From Spirochaetaceae bacterium (GTDB lineage Bacteria > Spirochaetota > Spirochaetia > Treponematales > Rectinemataceae): a stretch of DNA of 55,461 bases. The notes beneath the pieces are model-generated. The model was not told where the DNA came from and searched no databases. It saw only the letters and a program-made list of their open reading frames with translations. The stretch covers positions 1-55,461 of the forward strand of contig JANXYQ010000093.1 in NCBI GenBank assembly GCA_025355995.1, read 5' to 3'. How positions within the stretch are numbered: the first letter of the stretch is position 1; every line of letters starts with the position of its first letter. Position numbers and translations under genes: made by a program. Below, in pieces: positions 1-29,215 of the stretch.

Positions 1-509
1 CTATCGAGCCCGAAGGGATTGCCGAGCGCCACAACGAATTGTCCTACTTTCAGGCTCTTCGAGTCGGCAAGGGGCAGCGGTGAAGCGGCGGTAGTCTCGG
101 AGATAGCCAAGACCGCGAGGTCATTAGAGGGGTCCTTGCCGATTACGCTCGCCTTATAGGTCTTCCCGTTGTCGAAGGAGACCGTCACCTTATCCGCGTT
201 GGCGACGACATGGTAGTTCGTCACGATGTGGCCCTTCGAATCGTAGACAAATCCCGATCCCGTTCCCTCCTGCGGGACGGCTCTTCCGATGGCGTCCTGG
301 CCCACGATGCTGCTCGTGATATTCACGACCGAGGGGAAGGCTTGATTGTAGACGGCCTCCACTTGCGCTTCCAGCCCGAGGGCGCTAGCCTGTTCAGCCA
401 TTGCAGCCGCCGGCGCCAGCGCGAGAATCGCGATCAGGGCGAATACACCCTTGTTGGCCTTTGGACGACTGGAGCGAGTCGGCTGGTTCGCGAGTTTAAG
501 GCTTATCAT
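1..509 (-). CDS. HtrA/DegP-like periplasmic serine protease, N-terminal part
   Basis: The gene runs off the left window edge; 169 codons are visible. It is an S1C (HtrA/Deg) trypsin-like protease that would degrade or refold damaged envelope proteins. Residues 20-38 form a hydrophobic export signal or anchor ending in APAAAMAE. The TGSGF strand, the catalytic His in VTNYHVV (H100) and the catalytic Asp in NDLAVL (D130) are visible; the Ser motif GNSGG and any PDZ domain lie outside the window. The ATG at 509-507 overlaps the TGA of the upstream Met-rich gene (ATGA), so the two are translationally coupled. It is the third gene of the operon that starts with the rhodanese. Confidence 0.9.
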   Translation of the reverse strand, partial: MISLKLANQPTRSSRPKANKGVFALIAILALAPAAAMAEQASALGLEAQVEAVYNQAFPSVVNITSSIVGQDAIGRAVPQEGTGSGFVYDSKGHIVTNYHVVANADKVTVSFDNGKTYKASVIGKDPSNDLAVLAISETTAASPLPLADSKSLKVGQFVVALGNPFGLD

Positions 510-1186
510 TTCTGGACCCCGAATTCCTTCATCGCGATGAACTTCCCGTGCCAGGAATGATACCAAACCTGTCCCGTGTACCCGTTCACGCCGAGCATCC
601 CATACACGGCTCCGTCCTTGAGTACGTGAAGGGTGTAGTAGCCGTAGAACTTATCGGCCCCGTCCTCGACTTTGAGGCCAGGCTGCTGGGCATCGAGAGC
701 CTTCTGCGCCAGTTCGCGCGCCTTGGCCTCAGAGATGGACATCGGAGAAGAGGCCTGGGGCTGGAAGAAGAGCCCGCCCATCATACCGCTCGCCATCATG
801 CCGTACTTCTGGTTCCACATCATGTTCGGTCCCGGTTCGGGGGATACCGCGCCTGTGTACTTGTTCATGATCAGTTCCAGAGCCTTCTGGTCACCGCCCT
901 TTTCCCCGATCTCGAGATAGAACTGATTGGAGAACTCCATGATCTCCGCGATCTGGAGCTTATCGTCGCCCCACGAGGCGAGGTACTTCTTGGCCTGATC
1001 CGCGGCTTGATCGATCGTGAGCGGAGCCTGATTCCCCAGCGGGATATAATTGTAGGCGCCGCCCATCATCCCCTGCCCATAGCCGCCCATCATGCCGCCA
1101 CCATAGCCGCCGCCCATCATGCCCTGCGCGCCGAGGACAGCAGCCACAAGAGCGGCCAAACATGCGACCACCAACATCTTCTTCAT
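506..1186 (-). CDS. Secreted Met/Gly-rich PepSY-like protein, probable copper binder
   Basis: 226 residues with a Sec signal peptide (MKKMLVVACLAALVAAVLGA, residues 1-20). Residues 22-43 are a run of GMMGG-type repeats and a second GMM cluster lies near 129-138; Met clusters of this sort bind Cu(I) in periplasmic copper proteins. The rest resembles two PepSY-like units (SISEAKARELAQKAL, YGYYTLHVLKDGAVYGMLGVN). AAAGGAG sits just before the ATG. It lies 68 bp downstream of the rhodanese gene and overlaps the HtrA start. Copper sequestration or sensing in the periplasm is inferred from composition and from the operator shared with the copA operon; no catalytic residues are recognised. Confidence 0.75.
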   Translation of the reverse strand: MKKMLVVACLAALVAAVLGAQGMMGGGYGGGMMGGYGQGMMGGAYNYIPLGNQAPLTIDQAADQAKKYLASWGDDKLQIAEIMEFSNQFYLEIGEKGGDQKALELIMNKYTGAVSPEPGPNMMWNQKYGMMASGMMGGLFFQPQASSPMSISEAKARELAQKALDAQQPGLKVEDGADKFYGYYTLHVLKDGAVYGMLGVNGYTGQVWYHSWHGKFIAMKEFGVQK

Positions 1187-1254
1187 ATCCTGCTCCTTTG
1201 CGCCGTATGCGCATATCCTAAGAAACTATCCTTTGACGCCATCTTCAATTCGAA

Positions 1255-1662
1255 CTACTTTCCGAGCAAAGGCAGGCCAGCCTGTTCCCAGGCGATCATG
1301 CCACCTTCGAGATCGAGCACATTCGTATATCCCAGGCGCACGAGCTCCTTCGCCGCGATCGCGGACATGTGGCCGCTCCTGCAATACACGACGAGGGCTG
1401 CATTCTTGTCCTTGGGGTACTTGGCGATAAGGCTTGCAGTCTGATCGTAGGGGATGAACGCATCGGTACCTGATATCACGCCGGCATACGGGATGTGCAC
1501 ATTGACGAGGTAGAAGTCCTTGGCCTTCAGTATGGCCGACAGTTCTTGCGGAGTTACTTGCCGGACCTTCGCGGCCGGGCTCGCATTCAGAAATGCAATC
1601 GCCGACAGGATGACAACCCCGATTGCCAGAACCGTCTTGACCCAATTCCGTAGACCGCTCAT
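1255..1662 (-). CDS. Membrane-anchored single-domain rhodanese
   Basis: 135 residues from the ATG at 1662-1660, chosen because GGGAG lies 8 nt upstream; a longer frame to 1725 lacks a ribosome site and adds an unlikely tail. Residues 9-27 form an uncleaved or cleaved N-terminal helix, so the domain faces the periplasm. The rhodanese fold follows (VTPQEL, LVNVHIPYAG, LVVYCRSGHMS, LDLEGGMIAWEQAGLPL) with the active-site Cys at C94 in a six-residue CRSGHM loop. Rhodaneses move sulfane sulfur between thiols. First gene of the operon with the Met-rich protein and HtrA; it follows the tandem-box promoter at 1725-1760. Confidence 0.85.
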   Translation of the reverse strand: MSGLRNWVKTVLAIGVVILSAIAFLNASPAAKVRQVTPQELSAILKAKDFYLVNVHIPYAGVISGTDAFIPYDQTASLIAKYPKDKNAALVVYCRSGHMSAIAAKELVRLGYTNVLDLEGGMIAWEQAGLPLLGK

Positions 1663-1724
1663 ATCAACTACTCCCGCGTATCTCAGTATCGATACGCTCC
1701 ATCTCGAATTGGATTTCAATAGCA

Positions 1725-1760
1725 AGAGTACTCAAGGATGATGAAGCGATTGTGAACGCC
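1725..1760 (-). promoter_or_regulatory. Tandem 11-bp operator and -10 of the rhodanese operon
   Basis: Read on the minus strand the units are GCGTTCACAAT then CGCTTCATCAT, with the TTCA cores exactly 11 bp apart. A -10 candidate TACTCT (1730-1725) starts exactly 10 nt after the second TTCAT, and no good -35 is present. The same layout occurs at 5454-5488 and 15167-15201. One-turn direct repeats replacing the -35 are typical of OmpR/PhoB-family response regulators acting as activators. This copy is the most diverged of the three. Confidence 0.6.
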
Positions 1761-1829
1761 ATCTATTTTTACGATGCGGCCGTAGTCCACTCTATTCAGC
1801 CAGGATGAAGGCCGCCTGTTTTTACGATG
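1737..1829. repeat. Imperfect direct repeat between divergent promoters
   Basis: The 11-mer TTTTTACGATG occurs at 1766-1776 and again at 1819-1829. Each copy follows a similar lead: AGGATGATGAAG...GCCATCTA before the first and AGGATGAAGGCCGCCTG before the second. The first copy overlaps the rhodanese operator. It lies between the rhodanese operon and the chemoreceptor gene and may be a local duplication or a second regulator site. Confidence 0.5.
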
Positions 1830-1857
1830 AACTGGCTCTAGCCAAGAACAGTTTGTC

Positions 1858-1886
1858 TTGAACGTCATTCGGTATACGAATAAACT
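1858..1886 (+). promoter_or_regulatory. Candidate sigma70-type promoter of the chemoreceptor operon
   Basis: TTGAAC (1858-1863), a 17-bp spacer and TAAACT (1881-1886) lie 32 bp before the ATG at 1919. AAGGAG at about 1907-1912 serves as the ribosome site. The match to consensus is moderate; a chemotaxis sigma factor site was not seen. Confidence 0.4.
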
Positions 1887-1918
1887 TATTAAGCGAAAGG
1901 TCTAGCAAGGAGTCCTTC

Positions 1919-4111
1919 ATGCGCTCTAGCCCAGGCAACTACCGCAACAGGCTCGGATTTCGTATCGCGGTCTTTGCCGCAACTACTACGTTCATCGCAT
2001 ATGCGCTGACGCTAGGATATATCGGTGTAAGCATCCGAAGCTCCTCGAGTGAAGCTGCGCTCCGGGAAGCTCAAGGACTGGCTGCGACCCAGGCGGCTAC
2101 AGCTTCATCGGAATTCGTCTTCGTCAGGTCGTCGATCAGCGAGCTCGCCCATCTACTATCGATGACGGACATGTTCCCGAGGGCATCAAAGCGTCAACTC
2201 ATCGATGGCATGTTGAAATCGACAGTCGAGAAGGAGACGAGGTTTATCAATGCTTGGGCGGTCTTCCTGCCTGGAAGCATCGATGAGAAGACAGTCTCGC
2301 AGTTCGCATGGCATCGGATGGGAACTGATCTAGTCGCTAAAGAATACCCAACGGACAAGAGTTCCAAGCTACTCGCGACTGTACGAGAAACGAAGGAAGT
2401 CTGGGTTTCCGAGCCTTATGCAGTTTCGCAGCTTGCCGGAACCATGACCATGGCAAGCAAGGGCGGAGAACTTGCGAGCAGCATCGCTGCCCCTATCATT
2501 GACGCCTCAGGGAATGTCATAGGCGTAGTTGGCGCCGATTTCAACCTTGCGGCTCTTCAGGATCGCATGGGGAAGACTGGCTTCTTCGACAATGGCTATG
2601 GCGAGCTTCTGTCGAACGAAGCGATGGTCGTGACCGCGAAGGACTCAAAGCGCATAGGCGCAGCGGCTCACGAGCTCGAAGACGATTCAGGCACGGCGAT
2701 CAAGAGCGCGATTGCCGAAGGCAAATCGATGGCCCTCGTGTCGAAGGGCGACGAGCACGGCCCCAGCGCCTTCAAGTACCTGACGTCCGTAGATACTGGC
2801 GTGTCGGGCAAGTCATGGAGCTACTTGATCGTCATTCCCTATGCGGAAGTGATGGCGAAGGTCGTGAAACTCGTCAGCATGACTATCGCGATAGGCGTGC
2901 TTTCTCTCATCGCGGCGGTCCTGACCATCGGAGCCCTGATCTCGAGAATGATCCGTCCGCTCACTGCCACGGTGGGAGCGCTCAAGGAGATATCCGAGGC
3001 CGGAGGCGATTTGACGAGAAGGATCGAGAGCGATCGACGCGATGAGGTCGGCCTACTCGCAGAGCATTTCAACAGGTTCAGCGAATCCCTCGCCCAGCGC
3101 ATAGGCGCCATAATTGCTTCGGCCCAGTCGCTTTCCAGGACAGGAGAGGAACTTCAAGAGAGTATGGGAACTGTAGCGAGTGCGGTGACCGAAATCGTAG
3201 CTAGCCTACAGGAGATGAAGGAAGGCGCGAACCGACAAAGCACGAGCATTCAGAAGTCTTCCGATGCGACGACACTAATACTAGGAAGGATACAGAAACT
3301 CGAGGATCTGGTCGCTCGTCAATCAGGCTGCGTTTCACAGTCGTCAGCGGCCGTGGAAGAGATACTGGCCAACATAGGCTCCATGGCTCACAACGCGGAA
3401 ATCGCCGGCGAACAATATGCCAGCTTGGTCACTGCATCAGAAAGCGGAACGGCCGTGATCGCCGAGGTTAGCCAAACGGCCAAAGAGATCGAGCAGCAGT
3501 CGGCAGCATTACGCGAGGCGAATACCATCATCGCAGCCATCGCTTCGAAGACAAACCTCCTCGCCATGAACGCCGCGATAGAGGCTGCCCATGCAGGAGA
3601 CTACGGCAAGGGCTTCGCCGTGGTCGCGGACGAGATACGCAACCTCGCGGAGAACTCCGCCATCCAGTCTAGGGGCATCGGCAACAATCTGAAGACCATC
3701 CAGAGTTCCATAAACGCCGTCGTAGGCGCATCGACCAGGGCGGAGAAGGCCTTCGCGGATATTCGAGGTATGATTTCGAGCCTCTATACTCTCCAAGAGG
3801 AGCAGAAGCAAGCATTGCTGGAACAGCGGGAAGGGTCATCGTCAACGATCGAAGCTCTAGCCACTATCAAGGAGGCGACCGCCGAAGTAGATTCGTCAAC
3901 CTCCCAAATGCGCGAGGCTTGCGCGAGCCTGGCCTCTGGAATGAAGTCCGTAGCCGGCGCTAGCCAGGAGTTCCTGGAAGGAGTCGGCGAGATCGCGAAA
4001 GGGGCCGCAGACATAGACGACTCGATAGTGCATGTCGCGAGCCTCGCCACCGATAACAGCGACAATATCGCCAAGGTCGCCGCAGTCGCCGGCACGTTCA
4101 AAATCGCATGA
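1919..4111 (+). CDS. Methyl-accepting chemotaxis protein with double-Cache sensor
   Basis: 730 residues. TM1 is at about 14-38, followed by a periplasmic dCACHE-type sensor region (about 40-310), TM2 near 316-343 and a HAMP linker (about 345-395, ending near [13 protein letters not shown]). The cytoplasmic signalling hairpin has its conserved tip at about 538-582 ([20 protein letters not shown], then [15 protein letters not shown]), which contacts CheA and CheW. The ligand cannot be read from the sequence. The stop overlaps the start of the HD-GYP gene (ATGA), so receptor and phosphodiesterase are made together. Codon use here includes more ATA and CTA than the GC-rich genes to the right. Confidence 0.95.
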
Positions 4112-5406
4112 ACAGCCTGCGGTCTATGTGGGCGAAGCGATTCAAGCCCGAGAAGAATGTTCTCCTAAGCTACTCGCTATTCATGCTGATCGTCGTTGCC
4201 GGTGCGTCTTCGCTTCTCGGGATCGTGCTCACTGGTTTCGTGCGTGGCCATGTCATCAGAATGCATGCCTCGTTCTATGCCGATAGCCTCTCATCAGCCT
4301 TCAGTTCAACGCTTCCTGGTGCATCGAAAGAAGAGCTCGCGCGGGCACACGACAGCCTTGAGCGCGAGGGGCTCCTCATGCATGTCAAGACAATGTCCAT
4401 ATGGGACTCGTCAGGAGTATTGCTCTATGGCGAGGCGTCCCCATTCATAGGCGCCGTAGGAAATGATCCGCTCGTAGATGCACAATCGGGCTCTCTCCGT
4501 TTCATCTACAAGACTACATCCGTACGAGGGATGTTCGATCTTCCGCGAGGCGATCTTGCCTTATACCTGCCGATCCGAGACTTGAGAAGCACGGTAATTG
4601 GAGTGATTGGCCTAATAGAATCAGACGAAGGGCTCGCCGACGACCTGGGGATCGCGGCGCGGACCATCGCTCTCTATGTATCGTTCGCCGGAGTCGCGAT
4701 CTACGCTTCCTTGTTCATGCTGTATTTCAGGTCCTACCGCCGGCAATCCCTCTACTCTGCAAGACTGAAGAAGAGCAAGGAGAGTATCATCTTCGCAATG
4801 TCGAGTCTCTCGAGTCTCCGGGACCAAGAGACGGGAGGCCACCTTGAACGATGCGAGGAGTATGTACGCCTGCTTGCAGGAGAGCTTCGCGAGGACCGCA
4901 TATTCCGACGGTATGTCGATGCCGAATACATCGAGTCCCTAGCCAACGTCGCACCACTGCACGATATAGGCAAGGTCGGAATCGATGACGCAATCCTACG
5001 CAAGCCGGGGAAGCTGACACCGGATGAATACGAGATCATGAAGACTCATTGCGCGCTCGGAGCCTCCATCCTCGAAGCCGCCCGAGAGCGATTGCCTTTC
5101 GAATCCGAGCTTGAACTTGCGATTGAACTGACACGCCATCATCATGAACGATGGGACGGCACAGGATACCCATATGGGCTATCCGGCGAATCGATTCCGC
5201 TCTCGGCGCGTATTATGGCGATTGCGGACGTCTATGACGCCCTTAGGTCCGAGCGATACTACAAGAAGGCTATCGGGCACGCGGAATCGCTCAAGATAAT
5301 AAAGGCTGGGGCAGGGACACAATTCGATCCAAGACTATTGTTCATCGTTGAAACCTGTAGCGACAAACTCGAAAGGATATATAATGGAACTCCATGTATC
5401 TCATAG
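4108..5406 (+). CDS. Membrane-bound HD-GYP cyclic-di-GMP phosphodiesterase
   Basis: 432 residues. TM1 is near 13-38 ([19 protein letters not shown]) and TM2 near 185-210, enclosing an extracytoplasmic sensor region of about 140 residues. The C-terminal half is an HD-GYP domain with the metal-binding HDIGK (H285-D286), the [13 protein letters not shown] motif near 342-354, and [11 protein letters not shown]. It should hydrolyse c-di-GMP to pGpG or GMP. All core metal ligands are present, so activity is likely. It is translationally coupled to the upstream chemoreceptor by a 4-bp overlap, suggesting the pair links an external signal to motility and to c-di-GMP. Confidence 0.93.
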
Positions 5407-5453
5407 ATGTCCTTGACATATACTGTTTTGGCGATTCATCAACTCAATAGCCT

Positions 5454-5488
5454 GCGTTCATGCTCCGTTCATAGTCCTCATATATTAT
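5454..5488 (+). promoter_or_regulatory. Tandem 11-bp operator and -10 of the methyltransferase-tlpA-ccdA operon
   Basis: GCGTTCATGCT is followed directly by CCGTTCATAGT (units start at 5454 and 5465). The two TTCAT cores are 11 bp apart, and TATTAT (5483-5488) begins 10 nt after the second core. Geometry and sequence match the box in front of the copper operon almost base for base. No independent -35 is seen, as expected for an activator-dependent promoter. Confidence 0.7.
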
Positions 5489-5523
5489 TCTCTTGAACAC
5501 GACGCGCGAGAGGGAGCGAGTAT

Positions 5524-6207
5524 ATGGACCATAGGTATATCCCGCCGCTTCGACTGAACGAACTTACGCCGCTCTTTGATGCTTTCATGAAGCATTTGCT
5601 CCCAGAGCGTCGAATCAAGGTCGAACTCCTGCAAACAATTGGAGCTCAACCTGGATCGAGAATATTGGATTTTGGCTGCGGCACAGGGACTCTCGCCATC
5701 ATGCTCAAGCTCGCGCAGCCCGAGGCGGTAATCGTCGGACTAGACATCGACGCGACTGCGTTGGGCATAGCGCGCGACAAGGCGGTTCGGCATGGCGTTG
5801 ATGTGCGCTTCGACCAGTACGATGGCGCCAGCCTGCCGTACGCCGACTCAAGCTTCGATTATGTGGTATCGACCTTCGCATTCCATCATCTGCTCGATTC
5901 CCAAAAATATGGGGCACTGCGCGAAATACTCCGAATCCTCGCGTCCGGAGCCACCTTGACCGTGGCGGACTTCGACCGCTCTCATAAGGTCCTGCTTCGG
6001 GGTGCGTTCCTCCTCCCCAGGCTTCTCGATGGTCTCGCTAACACCAGGGCGAACGCGCTAGGCCTTATTCCCTCCATGTTGGCCGAGTGCGGCTTCCTCG
6101 AAGTCGGCCGGAGAGAGAGATACGCGACCCTATTCGGCGAGGCTAGCGTAATCCAGGGCCGAAGCCCCCCGAGCTCCAACTCTCGCCAGGAGAAATCCCA
6201 CGCGTAG
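5524..6207 (+). CDS. Class I SAM-dependent methyltransferase (UbiE/Methyltransf_11 type)
   Basis: 227 residues. The SAM-binding motif I is RILDFGCGTG (47-56) and motif II is the acidic VGLDID (about 71-76); later elements include YDGASLPYADSSFDYVVSTF and a C-terminal half typical of small-molecule methyltransferases. The substrate is unknown. It lacks the conserved Cys set of arsenite methyltransferase ArsM, so that role is not supported. Start ATG at 5524 follows GAGGGAG. It is first in an operon with an exported thioredoxin and CcdA, under the operator shared with the copper genes, so a role in metal or redox stress is inferred. Confidence 0.85.
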   Translation: MDHRYIPPLRLNELTPLFDAFMKHLLPERRIKVELLQTIGAQPGSRILDFGCGTGTLAIMLKLAQPEAVIVGLDIDATALGIARDKAVRHGVDVRFDQYDGASLPYADSSFDYVVSTFAFHHLLDSQKYGALREILRILASGATLTVADFDRSHKVLLRGAFLLPRLLDGLANTRANALGLIPSMLAECGFLEVGRRERYATLFGEASVIQGRSPPSSNSRQEKSHA

Positions 6208-6751
6208 GATCATCGCAATTTTCTCGCTCCTTCTTGGTGCAGCATTTTTGAGCGCCGATGACCTCAAGGACGCGCTTAAGCGGTTACAACTCCGGACGGT
6301 CGACTCAGCGATACAGCCCATCGACTTCGAGCTCCCCTCCCTCTCCGGGATCTCTACTCGGCTCAGTTCGCTTCACGGCAAAGTCGTCTTCTTAAACTTC
6401 TGGGCTACCTGGTGCGGACCCTGCAGATCCGAGATGCCCGCTATCGAGCGACTATATGAAACACTCGGGAAGAGCGGTCTCGAGATCGTCGCCGTCGACC
6501 TTCGCGAATCGCGAGATACGGTTGCCTCGTACGCGAAGGAACTCGGCCTGAAATTCTCCATTCTCCTGGACACGCAAGGGCGGGCGGGTTCGGACTATGG
6601 CGTGAGCTCGATCCCGACGACGCTCATCCTGGATCGCGATGGCATGATCTTCAGCGCCGCCGTCGGCGCGAGGGCGTGGGACTCGCCGGAGATGCTCGCT
6701 CTGTTCCGGCGGCTCCTCGCCGCGAGACCGCTCGCAAGGGATGCTAAGTAG
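6200..6751 (+). CDS. Exported TlpA/ResA-type thioredoxin with probable ACG start
   Basis: The thioredoxin fold carries VVFLNFWATWCGPC with redox cysteines C72 and C75 and the cis-Pro in SSIPTTLIL. The first ordinary start in frame is TTG at 6248, which would leave a cytoplasmic protein without a ribosome site. The frame upstream encodes RRIIAIFSLLLGAAFLSA, a clear signal peptide, preceded by AGGAG (6188-6192) with 7 nt to an ACG at 6200. That ACG lies at the ATG position, overlapping the methyltransferase stop. I therefore place the start at ACG (183 residues). It would reduce periplasmic disulfides using electrons from the adjacent CcdA. Confidence 0.75.
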   Translation, partial: TRRIIAIFSLLLGAAFLSADDLKDALKRLQLRTVDSAIQPIDFELPSLSGISTRLSSLHGKVVFLNFWATWCGPCRSEMPAIERLYETLGKSGLEIVAVDLRESRDTVASYAKELGLKFSILLDTQGRAGSDYGVSSIPTTLILDRDGMIFSAAVGARAWDSPEMLALFRRLLAARPLARDAK

Positions 6752-6753
6752 CG

Positions 6754-7731
6754 ATGCGCGGCGATATAGGATACCTCCTCGCCTTCGGGGCAGGCTTCCT
6801 TTCCTTCGCATCTCCATGCATCCTCCCGTTGCTCCCCTCCTTCCTCTCGTTCGTTGGCGGTACGCCTCCGGCCGAGGATGAACCTGGAAACAGAGCAGGC
6901 GTAAGAAATCTGGCTCGAATCGCCATGTTCGTCCTGGGCTTCGCCTTGGTATTCGTCTCCCTAGGCCTGCTCTTCGGCGGCGGCGGGCTGCTATTTGCAA
7001 GATGGCGGAGCATCATCGATCGTGTTGCCGGAGCGCTTGTCATCCTGTTCGGGCTCAACACGATGTTCGATTGGGCGAATGCGCTCAATAGGGAACTGCG
7101 ATTCCACCCGCGGGCGAGGCCCCGGTCAGGCATCGGAGCGATGCTGGTCGGCGCCGCTTTCGGCGCGGGCTGGACCCCCTGCGTGGGGCCGGCCCTAGCA
7201 TCGATCCTATTCATGGCGGGAGCCGGGGGAGATCCAACTCGCGGAGCCGCCTTGCTCGCCGTGTACGCGGCCGGCCTCGGGCTACCATTCCTCGTGGCAG
7301 GTGCCTTCGTATCCTCCCTCTCGAACCAGATTCAAGCGATACGGGTGCATGCGAGGGCGATACGCGTCGCCAGCGGCGCATTGATGACGCTCATGGGGCT
7401 CCTTATCGAACTGGGAAGCCTTTCGAGCGTCAACGCATCGATGTTCGGCATTGCGGCCAAGTTCCAGAATTGGGGCGCCGACCATGCTGTCGCCCAGCGA
7501 GCCATCTTCGGCGCTATCTTCTTGGCCCTAGCAGCCTTCGGATCGATTCTCGGGCTCCGATATGCAAGACGATCCATGAACCAGAATACAATCGCGCGGA
7601 GGAGGCTGATCGCCAGTCTGGCGTTCGCTGCATTCACGATTGTCATGCTGTCGCTCGCCGCCCTCGTTTTCGCCGGAGTAGCGCGGCCGAACGAGATCCT
7701 CGCGGGCTGGCTTCGGTTCCAGGGAATCTAA
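6754..7731 (+). CDS. ccdA: CcdA/DsbD-type transmembrane thiol-electron transporter
   Basis: 325 residues with about seven to eight hydrophobic helices. The two conserved half-repeats have their redox Cys in ASPCILPLLPSF (C22) and GWTPCVGPAL (C143). CcdA passes electrons from cytoplasmic thioredoxin to periplasmic thiol proteins. It starts 2 nt after the tlpA-like stop, and that exported thioredoxin is its obvious partner. It is longer than minimal CcdA (about 230 residues) by a C-terminal pair of helices (from about 250) of unclear role. In this context it may keep periplasmic copper-site or cytochrome thiols reduced. Confidence 0.9.
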   Translation: MRGDIGYLLAFGAGFLSFASPCILPLLPSFLSFVGGTPPAEDEPGNRAGVRNLARIAMFVLGFALVFVSLGLLFGGGGLLFARWRSIIDRVAGALVILFGLNTMFDWANALNRELRFHPRARPRSGIGAMLVGAAFGAGWTPCVGPALASILFMAGAGGDPTRGAALLAVYAAGLGLPFLVAGAFVSSLSNQIQAIRVHARAIRVASGALMTLMGLLIELGSLSSVNASMFGIAAKFQNWGADHAVAQRAIFGAIFLALAAFGSILGLRYARRSMNQNTIARRRLIASLAFAAFTIVMLSLAALVFAGVARPNEILAGWLRFQGI

Positions 7732-7755
7732 AGCGTATGCCAGTTTGGCAGAGGC

Positions 7756-9207
7756 CTATTCTCGCCCTGTGGCTGATGCGCCTCTCCGTCGGGCATCGGT
7801 CTTCACGCCTTCGACGCGAGATACGGCTATTTTGCCTGACTTGCCTTTAATTAGCACCAAGCCCCTGCTGTTCGCACTGAGGATCGACATCCTGCTCTGT
7901 GACAACAGGCTCGTTGGGATAAGGACCTCCCCAGGACCAGCCATGGCCTCGAGCCTCGCGGCGAGATTCACCGTATCTCCGATGACGGTGAAATCCCGCA
8001 GATCCTCGGAGCCTACGTCTCCCTCTACGACTGAGCCCGCGTTGATGCCGATGCCGACGCGTAAGCCGGCCAATTCCTCGCGCGACGCTGCGACGAGGGA
8101 GACGATCTTGAGCGCGCAGAGGGTGGCAGGCCTTTCGTCGTCGAAGGTCGCCATGATCTCATCGCCTACGAATTTATCAATGATTCCGCCGAAGGCGCCG
8201 ATCGCCGTCGCCTGCAAGTCCAAGAGTCGATTGAGCACTCTGATGACGATCTCCGGCTCGTTGCTTTCCGTGAACGCGGTAAAGCCGCGTATGTCGGAAA
8301 AAAGGATCGCTCTCCGTGCGCGGATAGGCTCCCGGAATCCGCCTCCCGACGGGGCGCCCGCGCGCACAGCCCGTTTCGTCGACTCGCTGACGTACTTGGA
8401 GAGACGCTCCTTCTCCTCGAGGGCCGCGGCCATGCCGTTGAAGCGATTGGCCATGGTGCCGAACTCGTCCTGTGCCGCGAGCTCGATACGCGTCTCAAGG
8501 CGCCCGCGCTCGATATCCTCCATCGCTGACGAGATCAGCCTCGCCGGCCTGACGGCAGAAGTCGAAACGAGGCGATGCAAGATGAGCGCCTGAAGGAGTT
8601 CGGCGAGAATCGCGACCCCGATGGCGAGCGCCTCGTATCTCGCGAAATCAGCGTCATGCAGGCGCATCGATGCGGATTGGTCGATCTCCACGGCGACCGC
8701 GAAGCTCTTGCCGGGGAAAAGATCAGCTCTCGCTATAATGGTCATGACCATGCCGATCCGCGATCCGTTTCGCGAATCTCCGCGCGCGATCTCGATGGTA
8801 TCAGAAGCTATGGCTTTCGCCAGCTCGGAGGCATACCGAGACTCGTATGGGCCCGATTTCTTGTCGACCACAGCCACGGGCCGGAAGTTATCATCCACGA
8901 GTGCGATCGAATCGACGATGAAGCCCCCACTCTCGGCCCCGACTGCCATCGCACCCTGGAATACCTTTGTAATTGCGTCGATAAACACCGAATCCTTGGA
9001 ACTCCGGAACCTGTCGCCTTCGTGCGAGAACAGATCCTCGGCCTCTTTCCTGACAAAGGCGGCATAGGTTCGCGCATGGTTCTCCATCTGGGCTCCTGTA
9101 AGGGTTTGGAACAGGAAAGGAAACCCTACCAGGACACCAGCGATTACTAGCAGCGAGCTGGCGAAGAATATGAGCGTGACGCGTTTACCGAGCTTGATTT
9201 CGATCAC
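7756..9207 (-). CDS. Class III adenylate/guanylate cyclase with HAMP and membrane sensor
   Basis: 483 residues. TM1 is near 9-36, then an extracytoplasmic sensor region (about 40-185), TM2 near 190-212, HAMP (about 213-268) and a catalytic domain (about 295-470). The catalytic domain has both metal aspartates (FSDIRGFT and KFVGDE) and the DFTVIGDTVNLAARLE segment with the transition-state Asn and Arg. The Lys before FVGDE and the Asp in DFTV favour ATP as substrate, so cAMP is the more likely product. It converges on the ccdA operon with a 24-bp gap. Its own promoter region shows no copper-type box. Confidence 0.9.
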   Translation of the reverse strand: MIEIKLGKRVTLIFFASSLLVIAGVLVGFPFLFQTLTGAQMENHARTYAAFVRKEAEDLFSHEGDRFRSSKDSVFIDAITKVFQGAMAVGAESGGFIVDSIALVDDNFRPVAVVDKKSGPYESRYASELAKAIASDTIEIARGDSRNGSRIGMVMTIIARADLFPGKSFAVAVEIDQSASMRLHDADFARYEALAIGVAILAELLQALILHRLVSTSAVRPARLISSAMEDIERGRLETRIELAAQDEFGTMANRFNGMAAALEEKERLSKYVSESTKRAVRAGAPSGGGFREPIRARRAILFSDIRGFTAFTESNEPEIVIRVLNRLLDLQATAIGAFGGIIDKFVGDEIMATFDDERPATLCALKIVSLVAASREELAGLRVGIGINAGSVVEGDVGSEDLRDFTVIGDTVNLAARLEAMAGPGEVLIPTSLLSQSRMSILSANSRGLVLIKGKSGKIAVSRVEGVKTDARRRGASATGRE

Positions 9208-9299
9208 CTCTCAAGCGATTGCGACGGCACATGAGCGAAGGTAGCCGTGGCTATCGATATTTCCGCCGACGGAAGCAGAAGGCTCGTCGAGGCGTTCGG

Positions 9300-9324
9300 C
9301 CGACCCCGCAAGTGTCGGGGTCGG
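9300..9324. terminator. Hairpin at the end of the copper operon
   Basis: CCGACCCCG (9300-9308) and CGGGGTCGG (9316-9324) form a perfect 9-bp stem with a 7-nt loop, 22 bp beyond the lipoprotein stop. No T run follows on either strand, so it may be a Rho-dependent end or an mRNA 3' stabiliser. Confidence 0.5.
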
Positions 9325-9346
9325 CGACGAAGCGGCACTCCGAAAA

Positions 9347-10069
9347 CTATTTCAGGTTATATGGCCGCAAGAGCTTGTCCACCTGGATCGTCTTGCCCGC
9401 GTCGTTCTTGGTCTCTACTTTCGCGAAGGCCCAGCCCTGTATCTTCGCGGGATCGACGCCCGCCGCGATGAAGGGCGCGGGATCGAGGACGAAGACAAGG
9501 TCCTTGTCGTTCTTCGACATGTCCTTGGCCCACTCGAGCATGCTGCCATTGCCGAGCTTGATGCCGTAATGGTCGAGCTTTTCGTGGTAGCCGATCCTGG
9601 CCCGCTGTGTCCTGACTATCTCGGCGAAGGTTGCCTCCAGGGACTTCTTGGCATCGGCCGCGAACTTGTCGCTTCCCAGCTCGAAGTGGTACATGAACCG
9701 GCCATCCTCGAGCTCATACTTGATGCCGTCGACTTTGGGCAGCTTGGCGATATCGAGCCCCGCCGCGACGAAGGGAGCTGCGTCGAAGGAGAACTCGACA
9801 TCGGGCTTGTCGAAGTCGACGCCAGCGACGGTGTTATTCCTCGCGAAGTCGGAGGAGAAGGATACCTCGTCTCCCGCGGGAGAGCTCAGGGTCCAGGCCT
9901 GGTCTTCCTCAGACCATTTGACTCGGCCCGAGGATGCGTCGGCCACGGCCTTGAAGGAACTGTTGGCGACCTTCGCCACCACATCGGTGCTCGAGCAGCC
10001 GACTGCACCGAACGCGGCTACGGCGATGGCAGCCAGCACCGAGGCCCTTACATAGATATTCGTTTTCAT
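9347..10069 (-). CDS. Lipoprotein with internal duplication, last gene of the copper operon
   Basis: 240 residues. A lipoprotein signal peptide ends in FGAVGC with the lipidated Cys at C25. Two related segments lie exactly 100 residues apart: FDAAPFVAAGLDIAKLP (about 95-111) and LDPAPFIAAGVDPAKI (about 195-210), suggesting an ancestral duplication of a roughly 100-residue unit. I do not recognise the family. It contains no His/Met/Cys clusters that would mark a copper site. It follows copZ by 12 bp, so it is cotranscribed with the copper genes; a structural or chaperone role in the envelope is only a guess. Confidence 0.75.
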   Translation of the reverse strand: MKTNIYVRASVLAAIAVAAFGAVGCSSTDVVAKVANSSFKAVADASSGRVKWSEEDQAWTLSSPAGDEVSFSSDFARNNTVAGVDFDKPDVEFSFDAAPFVAAGLDIAKLPKVDGIKYELEDGRFMYHFELGSDKFAADAKKSLEATFAEIVRTQRARIGYHEKLDHYGIKLGNGSMLEWAKDMSKNDKDLVFVLDPAPFIAAGVDPAKIQGWAFAKVETKNDAGKTIQVDKLLRPYNLK

Positions 10070-10081
10070 GTTTCTACTCCT

Positions 10082-10288
10082 TTAGGCTATCGCCGTGATC
10101 TCGTAACCGGCATCGGCTACGGCAGATTTCATGGCCGCATCGTCCAGAGTCGATCCCTCGACTACAGCTTTCTTCTTCCCGAGATCCACCTCGGCCTTGG
10201 TCATGCCGGCTATGGACTCGAGCGCCTCTTTGACGTGAGCGACGCAGTGGCCGCAGGACATGCCTTCGATTGAAAGTACCTTCTTCAT
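10082..10288 (-). CDS. copZ: Copper chaperone CopZ
   Basis: 68 residues, one HMA domain with the Cu(I)-binding GMSCGHC motif near the N-terminus and the ferredoxin-like fold pattern ending ADAGYEI. CopZ hands Cu(I) to CopA in the cytoplasm. It starts 25 bp after the copA stop and ends 12 bp before the lipoprotein gene. The CGHC variant is usual for chaperones, whereas CopA domains here have CAAC. Confidence 0.95.
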   Translation of the reverse strand: MKKVLSIEGMSCGHCVAHVKEALESIAGMTKAEVDLGKKKAVVEGSTLDDAAMKSAVADAGYEITAIA

Positions 10289-10313
10289 CGTGATTCCTCC
10301 CTATCGTATGAGC

Positions 10314-12773
10314 TTATGCGTAGGCTTTGAAGCGCCGTAATCTGAGAGCGTTGGTGAGCACCGAGACCGAGCTCAAGGACATCGCCGCCGCTGCCAGGAT
10401 CGGGTTGAGCAAGGGCCCGCCGAAGGCGTAGAGAAGGCCGGCCGCGACCGGGATGCCGAGGACGTTGTAGCCGAAGGCCCAGAAGAGGTTCTGCTTGATG
10501 TTGCGGATGACCTTCTTCGAGAGCCTGATGGCGGTCGGCACGTCCATGAGGTCCGAGCGCATGAGGACTATGTCCGCGCTCTCCATGGCCACGTCGGTGC
10601 CCGAACCGATCGCGATGCCGATGTCTGCCTGGGCGAGGGCGGGAGCGTCGTTAATGCCGTCGCCGACCATGGCTACGACCCGTCCCACGGCCTGCAGCTT
10701 CTTCACTTCCTCGGCCTTGTCCTGGGGCAGGACCTCGGCGAGGACGGTGTCGATGCCCACGGTCCGGGCGATGGCCTCGGCGGTCTTCCGCGAGTCGCCG
10801 GTGATCATCGCCACCTTGACGCCCATGCTATGGAGAGCCTCTATAGCCCTTGCGCTCGATTCCTTCACGACGTCGGCCACGGCTATGATCCCCGCATACC
10901 GCCCGTCGATGGCGACGAACATGGGGGTCTTGCCTTCGCCTGCGAGAGCGTCCGCCTCTCCCATTGCGACGTCGAAGTCGACATGGTTCGCCTTCAGGAG
11001 CTTGGCGTTGCCGGCGAGCACGGACTTACCACCTATGCTCGCCTTGATTCCGAAGCCGGGCAGGGCCTCGAAGCCTTCGACCTGGAGTATCGGGAGCTTG
11101 CGCTCCTCGGCCGCTCGGACGATGGCCTCGCCCAAGGGGTGCTCCGAGGCCTTCTCGGCCGAGGCGGTCAACGAAAGGAGCTCGTCCTCGCCGATGCCGT
11201 TCGCGCTCACGATATCCGTCGTCTCGGGGCGTCCTTTTGTCAGCGTGCCCGTCTTGTCGAAGACGATCGTGTTCACCTTGTGCGCGGTCTCGAGGGCCGC
11301 GCCGGACTTTATGAGGACGCCGTTCTCGGCACCGCGCCCGGTGCCGACCATTATGGCTGTCGGCGTCGCGAGGCCCAGGGCGCAGGGGCAGGCGATGGTC
11401 AGGATCGCCACAAAAACCGTGAGGGCGAAGACCACGCTATGACCGAGGAGAAGCCAAATCCCCGCTGATACGAGGGCGATCGCGAACACGACAGGCACGA
11501 AGTAGCCGGAGACGATGTCCGCCATCTGCGCGATGGGCGCCTTCGAGCCCTGCGCGTCCTCGACGAGCTTAATTATGTGGGCGAGGACCGTGTCTGCGCC
11601 GACCTTGGTCGCCTTGAAGCGGATCGAGCCGTTCTTGTTGACGCTCGCGCCGATGACCTTGTCGCCGACCGACTTCTCCACCGGCATACTCTCGCCGGTC
11701 AGCATGGATTCGTCCACCGAGGTCCTGCCCGAGACGATCTCGCCGTCCACGGGGATGCGCTCGCCGGGCTTCACCAGAATGAGGTCGCCCTCCTCGACTT
11801 CCTCGATGGGCAGCTCCATCTCGACCCCGTTCTGGATGACGGTGGCCGTCTTGGGCTGGAGGCCCATGAGCTTCTTGATCGACTCCGAGGTTCGGCCTTT
11901 CGACACAGCCTCCAAGGACTTGCCGAGGAGGATAAGGGTGATGATGACGCCCGCGGTCTCGAAGTAGAGGCTGCCCACCGCCTTGAAATCACCGTTAGCG
12001 ATCCCGAAGACCGAGTAGAGGCTATAGAGGATTGCAGCGCTCGTGCCCATCGCGATGAGGCTGTCCATGTTCGGAGCCCGGCGCCAGATGGCCGAGAAAC
12101 CCACGACGTAGAATCGATGTCCGGCCGCTATGACTGGGATCACGAGAGCGATCTCGAGGAGGGCGTAGCGCAGGGGATAGTTCATCGCGTTGATGCCTGA
12201 GGGCAGGGGCCAGCCGAGCATGGCCCCCATCGCGATGTAGAGGAGGGGGATCGAGAAGGCCGCCGATATGGCGAACTTGATCCACAAGGTCCTGATCTCG
12301 CGCTCCTTGGCAGCCTTGTGCTCGTCGACGGCCTTCGCCCCTTCGAGCGCGAGGGGCGTGTAGCCCGCCTTGACGATAGCCTGCTTGATCTCCGAGAGCC
12401 TGGCGGCCGAGGGGTCGTACAATATCGCGGCCTTCTCCGTGGCGAAGTTGACCGACACCAAGGACACGCCCGGAACCTTGCCAACGGCCCGCTCTATCGC
12501 CTTGGCGCAAGCGGCGCAGCTCATCCCGCCGACGGGGATCGTGACTTCCTTGTCCCTTCGCTCTTCGATCGCCTCGTAGCCGGCCTTGGCGACAGCGGCC
12601 TTGATCTCCTCTACAGTGAGCTTGCCGTCCTCGAACTTGACGAGGAGCTTCTCCGTCGCGAAGTTGACCACGGCTTCCTCTACGCCCGAGAGCTTCTTGA
12701 CCGCGCGCTCGGAGGCCTGCGCGCAAGCCGCGCAGGTCATCCCGTTTATCTTGAGGCTTTCCGTCTTGACCAT
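10314..12773 (-). CDS. copA: Cu(I)-exporting P1B-type ATPase CopA
   Basis: 819 residues. Two N-terminal HMA domains carry GMTCAAC (11-17) and GMSCAAC (83-89). Then come the TGES actuator motif, the transmembrane CPC (near 459) within [13 protein letters not shown], the phosphorylated DKTGTLTKG (near 503), the SEHP nucleotide-binding motif and [10 protein letters not shown]. The last helices contain YN and MSLSS, the P1B-1 signature for monovalent copper. It pumps Cu(I) from the cytoplasm. Its ATG shares one base with the stop of the upstream small membrane protein (TAATG). Length and motifs are normal; it should be functional. Confidence 0.97.
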
Positions 12774-13087
12774 TATCTTCCCTCCCTGACTCGATCAGGA
12801 TCGTTCGTGATGTTGATTGTCCTACCTTCGGAGCGACGGCAGGATTCGCCTGCGCCATCGCCTTTCCCCTGCTGCCCGTGGTTATGCCCCGGCATGAGCA
12901 TCATGGCGATCATCATGATCGGGCAGAGCAGATATACGAAGGACCCGAGCCCCTTCCCGGAACTCCGAACTCCAAGGACAGACAGCAGCACGACTATCCC
13001 GATGGGTATCAGGCAGCAGAGGACCATCATGGCCATGTGATGCCGCCCCATGAATGAGCCTACCGATTTGATCTTGTCTCGCACCAT
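12773..13087 (-). CDS. Small two-helix membrane protein of the copper operon (DUF2933-like)
   Basis: 104 residues from the ATG at 13087-13085. An ATG 15 nt further upstream is rejected because the ribosome site GGAGG lies between the two. Residues about 19-38 ([20 protein letters not shown]) and 48-64 are transmembrane. Met, His and Cys are frequent ([26 protein letters not shown]), suggesting metal contact. Short proteins of this kind recur next to copper or heavy-metal ATPases. It lies between the SafE-cupredoxin fusion (18 bp upstream) and copA (one-base overlap). Function is unknown; a copper shuttle or CopA accessory is inferred. Confidence 0.75.
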
Positions 13088-13105
13088 ATATTCCTCCTTC
13101 ATCTA

Positions 13106-15112
13106 TTACCGAGAGCAGCAGCCACCCGCGCCGCCGCCCGACGAAGCCCGGTACGCGGCCACCTCAGCCTTCACCTTCTTGACATCGACCTTCGAAAGAT
13201 CGTCTACCGTCTTCACGTAGCCGTGGAGCATCCCCATCCAACACTGGAAGGTGAAGTCCTGGGTGATCGTTAGCGCTGGAGTCTCGAGCTGGCCTTTCGC
13301 CAGGTCGAGTCCTCCGTTGTACTCCGGGAACATCACGACGTTGTTGCACGAAGTCAGCTGTGAAGCCTTGAACTTGATGACCGCCTTCATGCCCTTCTGA
13401 AGCACTATCGCCGCGGGCGTGTAGCCTCTATTGTCTACGGTGATCGTGATCTCCTGGACGCTATCCTTGACGACCGGCATACCGATGGTATCGCTCGGGA
13501 CCCGCCCCCCAGCGAAGGCCGGGTTGCTCGTACCGGAACAGCAACTAGCGCCACCGCCACCAAGCAGACCCTGGAGCCCGGTGCCAGGAGCCGCGGTACC
13601 CTGCGAGCCGTCAGGAGCGGCGGCTACCGATCCGTCGGTGCTGCTCGATGGATCATCCGCAACAACGCCGCCGGAGAGGTCCTTTACGACGCTGATGCGG
13701 CTCGAGATCATACCCATCCAGCAGGTGTAGGCGATCGTACCGGTCTTCTTCGGCGTGAACTCGACGAGATTGTCGCCCGCGACGAGCGTCTTCTGAATAC
13801 CGTAAGCGGGAATCGTCACCGGGTTGTTGCAGCCGTTGAGCTCGTCATCGGTAACGCGAATCGTCCACTTAACGGGCACGCCCGCCTGGACGGTAAAGGG
13901 CACGTAGTATCCGTCCTTGAACTCGGTAGTGACGGTCTGGACTCCATTCTCGAGCTTCGCAACGATCCCCGAGCTTTTCTTGCTCGCGACCGTCGTGGCG
14001 CCTACGATACCATCAGATACCGAGACAGGACCGGCGGACGCAAGGGCAACACCACCATTCGAACCGAAGGTCGGAAGAGCGATACCCGCCAGCGAGGCCG
14101 CACGCGAGAACGTGACGACGCCGAGGAACATGACCAGGATCGCGCTCGCCTTGACCATTACGGGCAGGAAGCGCCGAGGCAACATGGTCGCCGCGAGGCC
14201 GAAGCCGAGCATTAGGGGCACAGTCCCGATGGAGAAGATGAACATTGAGAGAGCGCCGGCGAAAAAGCTTCCTGTTCCGAGGGCGTAGAGCTGCATTGTC
14301 TGCAAAGGGCCGCAGGGCATAAGCCCGTTCAAGAGGCCAACGGCGAAAGGACCGCGTATCTTCGCGGGGCGCCCGGCCTCCGAGCGCTGCGAGCGTTCAA
14401 TCCCCTTCCTGAGACCGGCCGGAAGAAGGCGGGATAGCTTGGGAAGGGCCGGGACGAGGCCGAGCATCTTCAGGCCGAGGTAGAGCATGAAAAGCCCTGC
14501 GGCGCCCGCGATCGCTCCCTTGACGGTCGGGGAGAAGTTGAAAGCCGAGCCCAAGGCCCCGACGATGCCGCCGATGATCGTATACGAGATCACTCGTCCG
14601 CCGTTGTAGAGAAGGCCAGGAGACAAGCTAGCAAGCTTGCTCTGAAGTCTTGGCGCTACCGGTGCAGATTCTATAGAGCTAGCAGAAGTTGCCTTGATGC
14701 TCTGCGACAGCGAAATGCCGCCGCACATGGCCACGCAGTGCACCGAGGTCAGGAGGCCGACGATGAAGAGCATACCGTAGCCAATCGATGCGTCGATCTT
14801 GGGAAGAGCGTTGAAGAGCCCTGCTGAACTAGCTATCATGTATGCAGCCGCGAGCACGAGGCCAATGCCGAGGGCGACGAGAGTGCTCGCGTTCCGTTTA
14901 GCTCTGACGGTGTATCCAGCTTTTTCTATAGCAGTCTTGGCCGCTTCGGGTGAAGTCTGGCCCTCGTCATACTCGAATACGACTTCTCCGCCCTGCTGAT
15001 TCGCCTTCGCGCGAAGGACTCCGGGGATCGCGAGGAGGGCTCGTTCTATCCGCGCCTCGCAGGATGAACAGGTCATGCCCTCCACGAACAATGTCAGCGT
15101 TTTAGTTCCCAT
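13106..15112 (-). CDS. HMA - SafE/DsbD-like membrane domain - double cupredoxin fusion
   Basis: 668 residues, first gene of the copper operon. Residues 1-70 are an HMA domain (GMTCSSC, C15 and C18). Residues about 79-345 form a six- to eight-helix SafE/DsbD-like membrane unit (SVHCVAMCGG, LMPCGPLQTMQLYALG). The C-terminal half holds two cupredoxin-like repeats, each with a CNN loop and a distal CWMGM loop: GCNNPVTIP with YTCWMGM, and SCNNVVMFPEYN with FQCWMGM. Linker and tail carry Cys pairs (GASCCSG, GGCCSR). It probably moves Cu(I) from the cytosolic HMA to periplasmic cupredoxin sites, or transfers electrons to them; this is inferred from the domain order. Confidence 0.85.
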   Translation of the reverse strand: MGTKTLTLFVEGMTCSSCEARIERALLAIPGVLRAKANQQGGEVVFEYDEGQTSPEAAKTAIEKAGYTVRAKRNASTLVALGIGLVLAAAYMIASSAGLFNALPKIDASIGYGMLFIVGLLTSVHCVAMCGGISLSQSIKATSASSIESAPVAPRLQSKLASLSPGLLYNGGRVISYTIIGGIVGALGSAFNFSPTVKGAIAGAAGLFMLYLGLKMLGLVPALPKLSRLLPAGLRKGIERSQRSEAGRPAKIRGPFAVGLLNGLMPCGPLQTMQLYALGTGSFFAGALSMFIFSIGTVPLMLGFGLAATMLPRRFLPVMVKASAILVMFLGVVTFSRAASLAGIALPTFGSNGGVALASAGPVSVSDGIVGATTVASKKSSGIVAKLENGVQTVTTEFKDGYYVPFTVQAGVPVKWTIRVTDDELNGCNNPVTIPAYGIQKTLVAGDNLVEFTPKKTGTIAYTCWMGMISSRISVVKDLSGGVVADDPSSSTDGSVAAAPDGSQGTAAPGTGLQGLLGGGGASCCSGTSNPAFAGGRVPSDTIGMPVVKDSVQEITITVDNRGYTPAAIVLQKGMKAVIKFKASQLTSCNNVVMFPEYNGGLDLAKGQLETPALTITQDFTFQCWMGMLHGYVKTVDDLSKVDVKKVKAEVAAYRASSGGGAGGCCSR

Positions 15113-15166
15113 CGAACAGACCTCCTAGGCGATGCAAGCCGAGGGCGGCTCACATAGGACGAGGAG

Positions 15167-15201
15167 AATGTAGCAGTGGTCTATGAACGCAGTATGAACG
15201 C
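15167..15201 (-). promoter_or_regulatory. Tandem 11-bp operator and -10 of the copper operon
   Basis: On the minus strand GCGTTCATACT is followed directly by GCGTTCATAGA. The two TTCAT cores are 11 bp apart and TACATT (15172-15167) begins 10 nt after the second. The start codon lies about 55 bp further on, after a GGAGGTC ribosome site. This is the cleanest of three copies in the window, all oriented with transcription, and it fits an OmpR-type activator site. Confidence 0.7.
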
Positions 15202-15403
15202 TGGCTATTTCTTCTCTGTATTTGCAATACCCAGGCACCCTTTCAGGGCAACGCGACAGGGGGTGTACTTATATTGTACTTGCTAGACAATCTATCGCGG
15301 TGTGTCAGACCGCCGATCGCGGTCAAAACGTTTTCAGATAGACCCACTTGAGCCCGCCTCAACAGTTGCCGACTAAGTAGAAGAGCAACGCTTGGGAGGC
15401 ACC

Positions 15404-15673: not shown

Positions 15674-15847
15674 AGCCTCCCCTAAAGCCTGACTGTTACC
15701 CAATCTGTTACTAGACTCTCCCCCTTCTTCGTGCAATCATATGAAACCAGATGCCAAGGGGTGACATGGCCGTCGGCCTAAGTCGTTCCAAGATCAAGGC
15801 AACGGCGACCATATGACAAACTATTCTATTACCTGATAAAGAGTTAT

Positions 15848-28948: not shown

Positions 28949-29022
28949 GCGGAGATTCTAGGCTCCGCCCTGGGCTCGCGTCCAGGCCGGCGCGCCGGGA
29001 ACCCATGCCCGAGCGCACGAAA

Positions 29023-29205: not shown

Positions 29206-29215
29206 GGAGTCGCGG

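Follow-up and report, generated by a model that had tools for sequence, protein, structure and literature searches.

Paired 11-bp elements before three metal/redox operons of an uncultured spirochaete as candidate operators of a CopRS-like two-component system

A stretch of 55,461 nucleotides from a Spirochaetaceae bacterium (JANXYQ010000093.1, assembly GCA_025355995.1), in the following called the window, makes up the complete contig C29 of a genome of 4.5 Mb in 138 contigs. It carries three predicted operons with metal- or redox-related genes: a rhodanese/Met-rich protein/HtrA operon, a methyltransferase/TlpA/CcdA operon and a copper operon headed by a fusion of HMA, DsbD_2 and cupredoxin domains. 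Each is preceded by a pair of 11-bp direct repeats with the core TTCA and by a -10-like hexamer. Thus, the question arises whether the three pairs are one and the same operator, and which regulator would read it. We consider it highly likely that they are operators of a CopRS-like two-component system of the OmpR/PhoB family, present as one or two close paralogues on two other contigs of the genome, C17 and C95.

The paired element in the genome

In all three window sites (numbered 1 to 3, upstream of the rhodanese, methyltransferase and copper operon, respectively; Table 1) the TTCA cores are 11 bp apart and a hexamer of the form TANNNT begins 11 nt past the second TTCA. An earlier note on this DNA had described three such tandem copies, with the hexamer exactly 10 nt after the second core and no -35 element. 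The copies were found where they had been reported, and the distance of 10 nt holds in all three when counted from a six-base core. As to the -35 element, a scan of bases 1-16000 for the sigma-70 consensus gave 3 promoter-like sites (mean of shuffled sequences, 5.2), none of them at the three window sites, in agreement with the note. The distance from the end of the -10 element to the start codon is 62 nt for site 1 (with the ATG at 1662), 35 nt for site 2 and 54 nt for site 3.

Written as TTCA-N7-TTCA-N11-TANNNT, the pattern occurs in exact form 6 times in the whole genome, and 0 times in a backwards control (the pattern read in reverse, not a shuffle). From the dinucleotide frequencies of the window, 0.25 matches would be expected in the genome and 0.0008 in the first 15.5 kb of the window. 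The genome scan proposed in the earlier note thus did not bring up the many random hits with the same spacing that it had named as speaking against a shared operator. Three of the six matches are the window sites, and the others are shared out among C95, C17 and C91. Those on C95 and C17 lie upstream of a paralogue of the HMA-DsbD_2-cupredoxin gene and of an FtrD-like gene. The sixth, C91:344, precedes FMN-binding/ApbE/NQR-like genes and sits behind a different kinase.

For scoring, a held-out matrix was built solely from 13 promoters of other genomes, with 4.6 million order-1 Markov positions as null. Site 3 reached 30.1, the top score within the own-genome stretches scanned, followed by site 2 with 26.4 and site 1 with 23.2; the null maximum was 13.0 and C91:344 scored 18.0. 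With up to one mismatch the genome has 24 matches against 8 in the control, only seven of which score above 14 with the foreign matrix, namely the six exact ones and the promoter of the FtrD-like gene on C95. On C95 there is one more site, in front of csoR-copA, with a score of 15.2 and a poor -10 element.

That the three promoters are unrelated and resemble each other by chance is an explanation to which we give almost no weight. It could draw on the short and simple cores, and on the loose pattern (2 mismatches, without the -10 element), which in the window stands at chance level: 4 were found against a shuffle mean of 2.0, and at least 4 occurred in 15 of 100 shuffles. However, the excess of exact matches and the held-out scores far above the null argue against it. 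The chance level of the loose pattern rather implies that specificity depends on both exact cores together with the -10 spacing. Of eight matches of another genome search, those on C5, C19, C80 and C112 were dropped: the scores on C80 are 8.7-9.9, C5 has no comparable score in the stretch scanned, and those on C19 and C112 are absent from the 24 one-mismatch matches.

Conservation at copper promoters

To place the window in its family, 30 genomes were searched by protein for HMA-DsbD_2-cupredoxin genes, the motif being unused. In all 15 HMA-DsbD_2 promoters with a known gene start the site is present, with 13 exact copies and 2 that have one mismatch, at no more than about 105 nt before the start of the match (G008:C88, G005:C277, G001:C41 and G001:C119, where the gene start is absent, and weak matches to the HMA domain only are left out of this count). 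When all 4-mer dyads were counted in the 13 foreign promoters, TTCA-N7-TTCA ranked first (12/13), and the gap to TANNNT was 11 in 11 of the 13. Over 25 genomes of the family, own included, the exact pattern occurs 46 times against 7 in the control. At the level of sequence comparison, the paired site in the three metal/redox operons is confirmed as real and evolutionarily conserved.

A survey of 433 kb covered stretches picked partly by motif and partly by protein (family genomes, five from the own genome, one from another family). Here 40 positions score at least 12, the 13 training promoters among them. At 31 of them the next 3.5 kb downstream hold a query gene in the same orientation, whereby the query genes at C91 were taken from the C91 locus itself. 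The first query gene at these 31 is HMA-DsbD_2 in 15 cases, FtrD-like in 6 and CopA in 2 (23 together). A gene for a Met-rich PepSY-like protein lies under sites in G023 (28.9) and in G018 (12.7, with a weaker one further off). Judged by the predicted products, window sites 1 and 3 have counterparts at related genes elsewhere. In G004 a small membrane protein and a methyltransferase stand under a lower-scoring site (18.9).

The pattern also extends beyond the family. In a scan of named genomes, the best matches of the window copper protein were metagenome-assembled genomes of Spirochaetaceae and Treponema, followed by Clostridia. Among the best 80 of more than 570 named loci, 77 could be evaluated (usable start, with 150 nt or more before it), and a relaxed form of the layout lies upstream of the HMA-DsbD_2 gene in 42 of these 77 (Spirochaetes, Clostridia and a few others). 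The reversed control gave 0/77 and 200 shuffles gave a mean of 0.075. In 9 more loci the FtrD-like gene comes first and there is no site at the HMA gene; in 8 of them the site precedes the FtrD-like gene. The typical clostridial form is TTCATAAAATCTTCACA-N9-TANNNT. Kineothrix alysoides (L185) and Caproiciproducens faecalis (L153) are two culturable species in which the locus has the site together with a regulator-kinase pair.

Regulators, mechanism and competing explanations

According to the earlier note, no matching regulator gene is present in the window. This has to be modified, as an OmpR-family regulator with Response_reg and Trans_reg_C domains lies at 25575-26261, the only one of its family that was noticed there. 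The statement stands insofar as this gene lies beside KdpD and kdp transport genes: the region 25575-33612 holds a KdpE/KdpD-like regulator and large kinase on the minus strand beside kdpA, kdpB and kdpC-like genes on the plus strand (names from translations).

The note had also suggested looking for an OmpR-type regulator and kinase outside the window, and such pairs were found on C17 and C95, where genes of the same types and further sites lie next to them. On C17 the gene order is an HtrA-like gene, an OmpR/PhoB-type response regulator (1309-2019; Response_reg 100.1 bits and Trans_reg_C 85.3 bits, both above cut-off), a kinase (2016-3431) and then an FtrD-like gene with a site on the other strand. 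On C95, csoR-copA-copZ are followed by a second regulator, 63% identical to that of C17, a kinase, a rhodanese and a divergent FtrD-like/HMA-DsbD_2 pair with one site each. The FtrD-like gene of this pair (about 9606-9990, minus strand) seems to switch reading frame midway, as in a broken gene or a sequencing error. With a close regulator defined as a match at E<=1e-50, these two are the only ones in the assembly. Close-set regulators share a near-identical stretch, GY[ED]RT[ILV]DxH[IV]KN[IL]R, which we take to be the recognition helix. The regulators of C17 and C95 may therefore read the same sites.

Within the family the regulator accompanies the copper protein. Close regulators occur in 12 of the 30 genomes, that is in 12 of the 13 that match HMA-DsbD_2 strongly and in 0 of the other 17 (Fisher p=1.5e-7). 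If G001, which is 79% complete and has partial HMA-DsbD_2 matches only and no close regulator, is counted as gene-positive, the p value becomes 1.1e-6. Moreover, regulator-kinase genes are found downstream of sites. In G004 a site scoring 26.0 precedes a rhodanese gene, the regulator nearest to that of C17 (77%) and its kinase; in G008 the pair follows lp240, a relative of the lipoprotein of the copper operon with its own site scoring 32.8; in G023 it follows CopA and CopZ, and on the own C95 it lies behind the weaker site (15.2). The kinase of the G004 operon (G004:C24, 2983-4548) is split over two reading frames.

The HtrA fragment at the left end of the window shows 86% protein identity (89% over 444 nt of DNA) to the HtrA-like protein preceding the C17 regulator. 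Together with the rhodanese-regulator-kinase order in G004, this makes it likely that the window rhodanese/Met-rich/HtrA operon continues into a regulator-kinase pair past the contig end. C17 itself starts just ahead of its HtrA, followed by regulator and kinase, which suggests an operon duplicated from or related to window 1-509.

For the sensor side, 14 distinct kinases from the window's family and close relatives were picked by hand, with a partner regulator above 250 bits and at least 50% identical to the C17 regulator. The set leaves out G004:C24 (two frames; contained in both L050 and L138) and L124, which is a duplicate, and more distant spirochaetal kinases lie outside it. All 14 carry HPxxH[LV]xxGxP before the HisKA domain. 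Of the 3827 open reading frames (ORFs) of at least 120 residues searched, 15 had the motif; the 15th comes from a second copy of a contig already in the set. Among 54 kinase-like ORFs that have 340 residues or more and lie beside a regulator, 15 have the HPxxH form, 28 have WDAxxH[ND]xxxC, 0 have both and 11 have neither. The WDAxxH[ND]xxxC form is that of most clostridial kinases, but three spirochaetal loci at greater distance (L145, L147 and L148) have it as well, so that the split between sensor motifs does not track phylum. His, Cys and Met residues in this region would fit a Cu(I) site.

Altogether, it is most likely that a sensor-regulator pair switches the three operons on together, with extracytoplasmic copper probably as the signal. 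In the mechanism proposed here, copper in the periplasm would be sensed by the kinase, and the phosphorylated regulator, be it that of C17, of C95 or both, would bind two GCGTTCAY-like half-sites head to tail in the -35 position. The bound regulator would then recruit RNA polymerase to an otherwise weak TANNNT -10 element 11 nt downstream. In this way a Cu(I) export set (HMA-DsbD_2-cupredoxin protein, CopA and CopZ) would be activated together with an envelope set for redox and quality control, consisting of the rhodanese, the PepSY-like Met-rich protein, HtrA, the TlpA/CcdA thiol relay and the methyltransferase, as well as FtrD-like proteins on other contigs. The earlier note had united the three operons in one regulon. 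The shared and conserved site agrees with this, but the putative regulon is larger, including promoters on C95, C17 and possibly C91, and has two close regulator-kinase pairs.

The type case of class-II activation in the OmpR/PhoB family is PhoB, which in E. coli binds the tandem 11-bp repeats of the pho box head to tail and thereby replaces the -35 element. Seen from the geometry, the fixed -10 distance, the missing -35 element and the direct repeat would correspond to the requirements of this class. The half-site of PhoB differs from the TTCA-type half-site, and no phosphate genes were seen at the sites, unlike in the case of PhoB. The CusRS, CopRS and SilRS systems of Proteobacteria (TIGR01387/TIGR01386) share two-component control of periplasmic copper, but their operators are palindrome-like and not TTCA direct repeats. 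Membership of the C17 pair in the curated CusRS/SilRS/CzcRS subfamilies was considered and dropped, since both proteins score below the cut-offs (given below). An 11-bp repeat spacing and contact with RNA polymerase are described for the OmpR/PhoB family in the available part of a published account (PMC3798270). The OmpR/PhoB-type activator layout suggested in the earlier note is borne out by the regulator-kinase pairs beside the same gene types and by the conservation of the site at orthologous copper operons.

The closest known parallel is found in Corynebacterium glutamicum, for which the following is taken from the accessible text of one study (PMC3140484). There the CopR motif TGAAGATTTnnTGAAGATTT was found by motif search and checked by mutation and electrophoretic mobility shift assay (EMSA). 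On the other strand it reads AAATCTTCAnnAAATCTTCA, i.e. TTCA-N7-TTCA with the same 11-bp period as here, and the clostridial form TTCATAAAATCTTCA fits it exactly, with nearly the same letters in Clostridia. Both systems have a regulator, a kinase and a direct-repeat operator; in C. glutamicum activation by CopRS depends on copper, and copR shares one gene region with copper export genes (PMC3140484). Differently from the spirochaete, the accessible text reports CopR at one intergenic region only, with targets that include a multicopper oxidase and CopB (PMC3140484), whereas by sequence the spirochaete has six metal/redox promoters (three in the window, two on C95 and one on C17) and a weaker one. 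Its gene set, with HMA-DsbD_2-cupredoxin, FtrD-like, rhodanese, PepSY-like and HtrA genes, is also unlike that of C. glutamicum. The likeness would accordingly be one of operator and operon logic. Copper two-component systems with OmpR-type regulators are already known, and it is the regulon content that is unusual here. In the literature searched, which covered few subscription-journal papers, there was no recognisable description of a spirochaetal or clostridial copper regulator of such a sort.

Could the same OmpR-family operator respond to general envelope or thiol-redox stress, the copper genes being one branch, as is the case for BaeSR or CpxAR? The HtrA, rhodanese and TlpA/CcdA genes are of the envelope-stress type, and the best NCBIfam match of the C17 kinase is BaeS/SmeS (261.5 bits, cut-off 500). 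However, regulator presence follows the HMA-DsbD_2-cupredoxin protein across the 30 genomes, and copper-related or FtrD-like genes come first at 23 of the 31 family sites (13 of which trained the matrix). We therefore regard such a signal as rather unlikely. An improbable variant is that the sites are bound, through a shared TTCA half-site, by another OmpR-family regulator, either the partner of the C91 kinase or the KdpE-like one of the window. At C91 333-375, three TTCATGTTCCC-like 11-bp repeats stand before the FMN-binding/ApbE/NQR-like genes, behind another kinase end, and would probably serve as operator for a paralogous two-component system whose half-site is related. They include the exact match at C91:344, and the window does contain an OmpR-family regulator. 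Against this variant, the window sites share the GCGTTCA form of the HMA promoters in genomes with a C17/C95-type regulator, a form which C91 does not have, and the window's own regulator adjoins kdp-like genes.

As a further candidate, CsoR could be the main copper regulator, with the TTCA repeats as secondary. The genome has one CsoR-family match (C95:3874-4107), preceded by a C-rich/G-rich palindrome, and the predicted CsoR regulon of gut Firmicutes includes HMA-DsbD_2-DUF2318 and DUF2318 proteins in the available part of that work (PMC4938975). The effectors CopA, HMA, DsbD_2 and DUF2318 overlap there with those found here, but regulator class and operator differ (PMC4938975). CsoR-like genes are also seen in the three family loci L062, L064 and L130. 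Among the 80 named loci they occur in 6 by one-query tblastn, compared with the TTCA layout at 42 of 77 promoters. A simple CsoR-type palindrome pattern is absent from the three window promoters, and its sole match in the window lies elsewhere, at 9303. CsoR in the leading role is thus very unlikely. It is plausible, though, that CsoR forms a second layer and would read cytoplasmic copper for one operon, with the two-component system reading extracytoplasmic copper for the rest.

Several observations weigh against a copper-responsive CopRS-like system as the common regulator. In the subfamily scans, which covered the C17 pair only, the regulator scores 163.5 bits against the heavy-metal regulator subfamily TIGR01387 (cut-off 279.2) and the kinase 162.7 bits against the heavy-metal kinase subfamily TIGR01386 (cut-off 292.55); for the PhoB equivalog TIGR02154 the regulator reaches 211.5 bits (cut-off 296.2). 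G014 has an HMA-DsbD_2 gene and a one-mismatch site and no regulator at E<=1e-50, and 9 of the 40 survey positions have no query gene downstream. One exact match, C91:344, follows a different kinase, so that similar half-sites may serve a paralogous system as well. The weakest comparative support is that of site 2, whose operon has the G004 methyltransferase as its only foreign parallel. In 14 whole genomes from outside the family, the exact pattern exceeds its control just slightly (33 vs 19). For the 54 named loci that extend 6 kb or more downstream, the presence of a site close to the HMA gene is uncorrelated with that of a regulator in the same locus (20/35 with and 12/19 without a site; p=0.78), partly because the promoter precedes FtrD in some loci. 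Finally, five more distant spirochaetal loci have no HPxxH motif, three of their kinases carrying WDAxxH[ND]xxxC and two neither form.

On a larger scale, one ancient copper two-component system, with a promoter of the fixed layout TTCA-N7-TTCA-N11-TANNNT, might be in charge of anaerobic copper and envelope thiol defence in Spirochaetota and Bacillota, perhaps also in Actinomycetota. Its two mutually exclusive kinase sensor motifs, the HPxxH[LV]xxGxP form of the window's family with its close relatives and the WDAxxH[ND]xxxC form of Clostridia and certain other spirochaetes, would be different solutions for the same metal. We put this forward tentatively, as a possibility that falls somewhat short of even chances. 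With the CopRS-like system as regulator, a pattern spotted by eye becomes a defined regulon with candidate regulator and kinase in uncultured spirochaetes. It would tie the poorly characterised PepSY-like Met-rich protein, the HMA-DsbD_2-cupredoxin fusion, the FtrD-like protein and the methyltransferase to copper/thiol homeostasis, and the promoter pattern could be used to annotate the same regulon in Clostridia.

Gene content of the three operons

Table 1. Promoter sites and genes of the three predicted operons in the window.
Feature	Position	Strand	Evidence and remarks
Operator/promoter 1, upstream of rhodanese/Met-rich/HtrA operon	1725..1759	-	GCGTTCACAAT-CGCTTCATCAT (repeats 1759-1749 and 1748-1738), -10 TACTCT (1730-1725); exact genome pattern match
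Rhodanese-like, probably exported protein	1255..1662	-	Pfam Rhodanese E=1.7e-10
Met/Gly-rich, probably exported protein with PepSY-like units	506..1186	-	Pfam PepSY E=4.4e-4, 20.9 bits (below curated cut-off 24)
HtrA-like protease, N-terminal part, cut by contig end	3..509	-	Pfam Trypsin_2
Operator/promoter 2, upstream of methyltransferase/TlpA/CcdA operon	5454..5488	+	GCGTTCATGCT-CCGTTCATAGT (repeats 5454-5464 and 5465-5475), -10 TATTAT (5483-5488); exact genome pattern match
SAM-dependent methyltransferase (general class only)	5524..6207	+	Pfam Methyltransf_25 E=8.2e-22
TlpA/ResA-like thioredoxin-fold protein	6248..6751	+	Pfam AhpC-TSA and Redoxin; N-terminus may begin further upstream
CcdA/DsbD-like transmembrane thiol electron carrier	6754..7731	+	Pfam DsbD_TM E=1.1e-14
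Operator/promoter 3, upstream of copper operon	15167..15201	-	GCGTTCATACT-GCGTTCATAGA (repeats 15201-15191 and 15190-15180), -10 TACATT (15172-15167); exact genome pattern match
HMA - DsbD_2 - cupredoxin fusion, first copper-operon gene	13106..15112	-	Pfam HMA, DsbD_2, Cupredoxin_1, all above cut-off
Small Met/His-containing membrane-like protein, copper operon	12773..13102	-	No Pfam match
CopA-type copper-translocating P-type ATPase, two N-terminal HMA stretches	10314..12773	-	NCBIfam ATPase-IB1_Cu 629.1 bits, cut-off 397
CopZ-like copper chaperone	10082..10288	-	Pfam HMA E=1e-14
Conserved putative lipoprotein, last copper-operon gene	9347..10069	-	No Pfam match

In the case of the rhodanese, the ATG in Table 1 is likely the start and was preferred because the TTG listed as start, at 1725, falls within the promoter. 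The predicted structure of the Met-rich protein, built from two sequences and of low confidence (mean pLDDT 60), shows two units of a helix plus strands. Its best Foldseek match is the C-terminal domain of YpeB, a weak lead at E=2.3e-3, and there was none at E<=0.001. For the methyltransferase, no model reached its cut-off among the 25 NCBIfam models listed of 61.

The small membrane protein of the copper operon has a weak relative (37% over 59 residues) under a site in G004. A 71-bp block, 97% identical between window 15227-15297 and C17 4162-4232 in opposite orientation, adjoins two promoters of the putative regulon; these are the sole two matches found in the genome. Just past the end of the copper operon, at 9303-9321, an ACCCC-N9-GGGGT palindrome faces a convergent cyclase gene and is possibly terminator-like.

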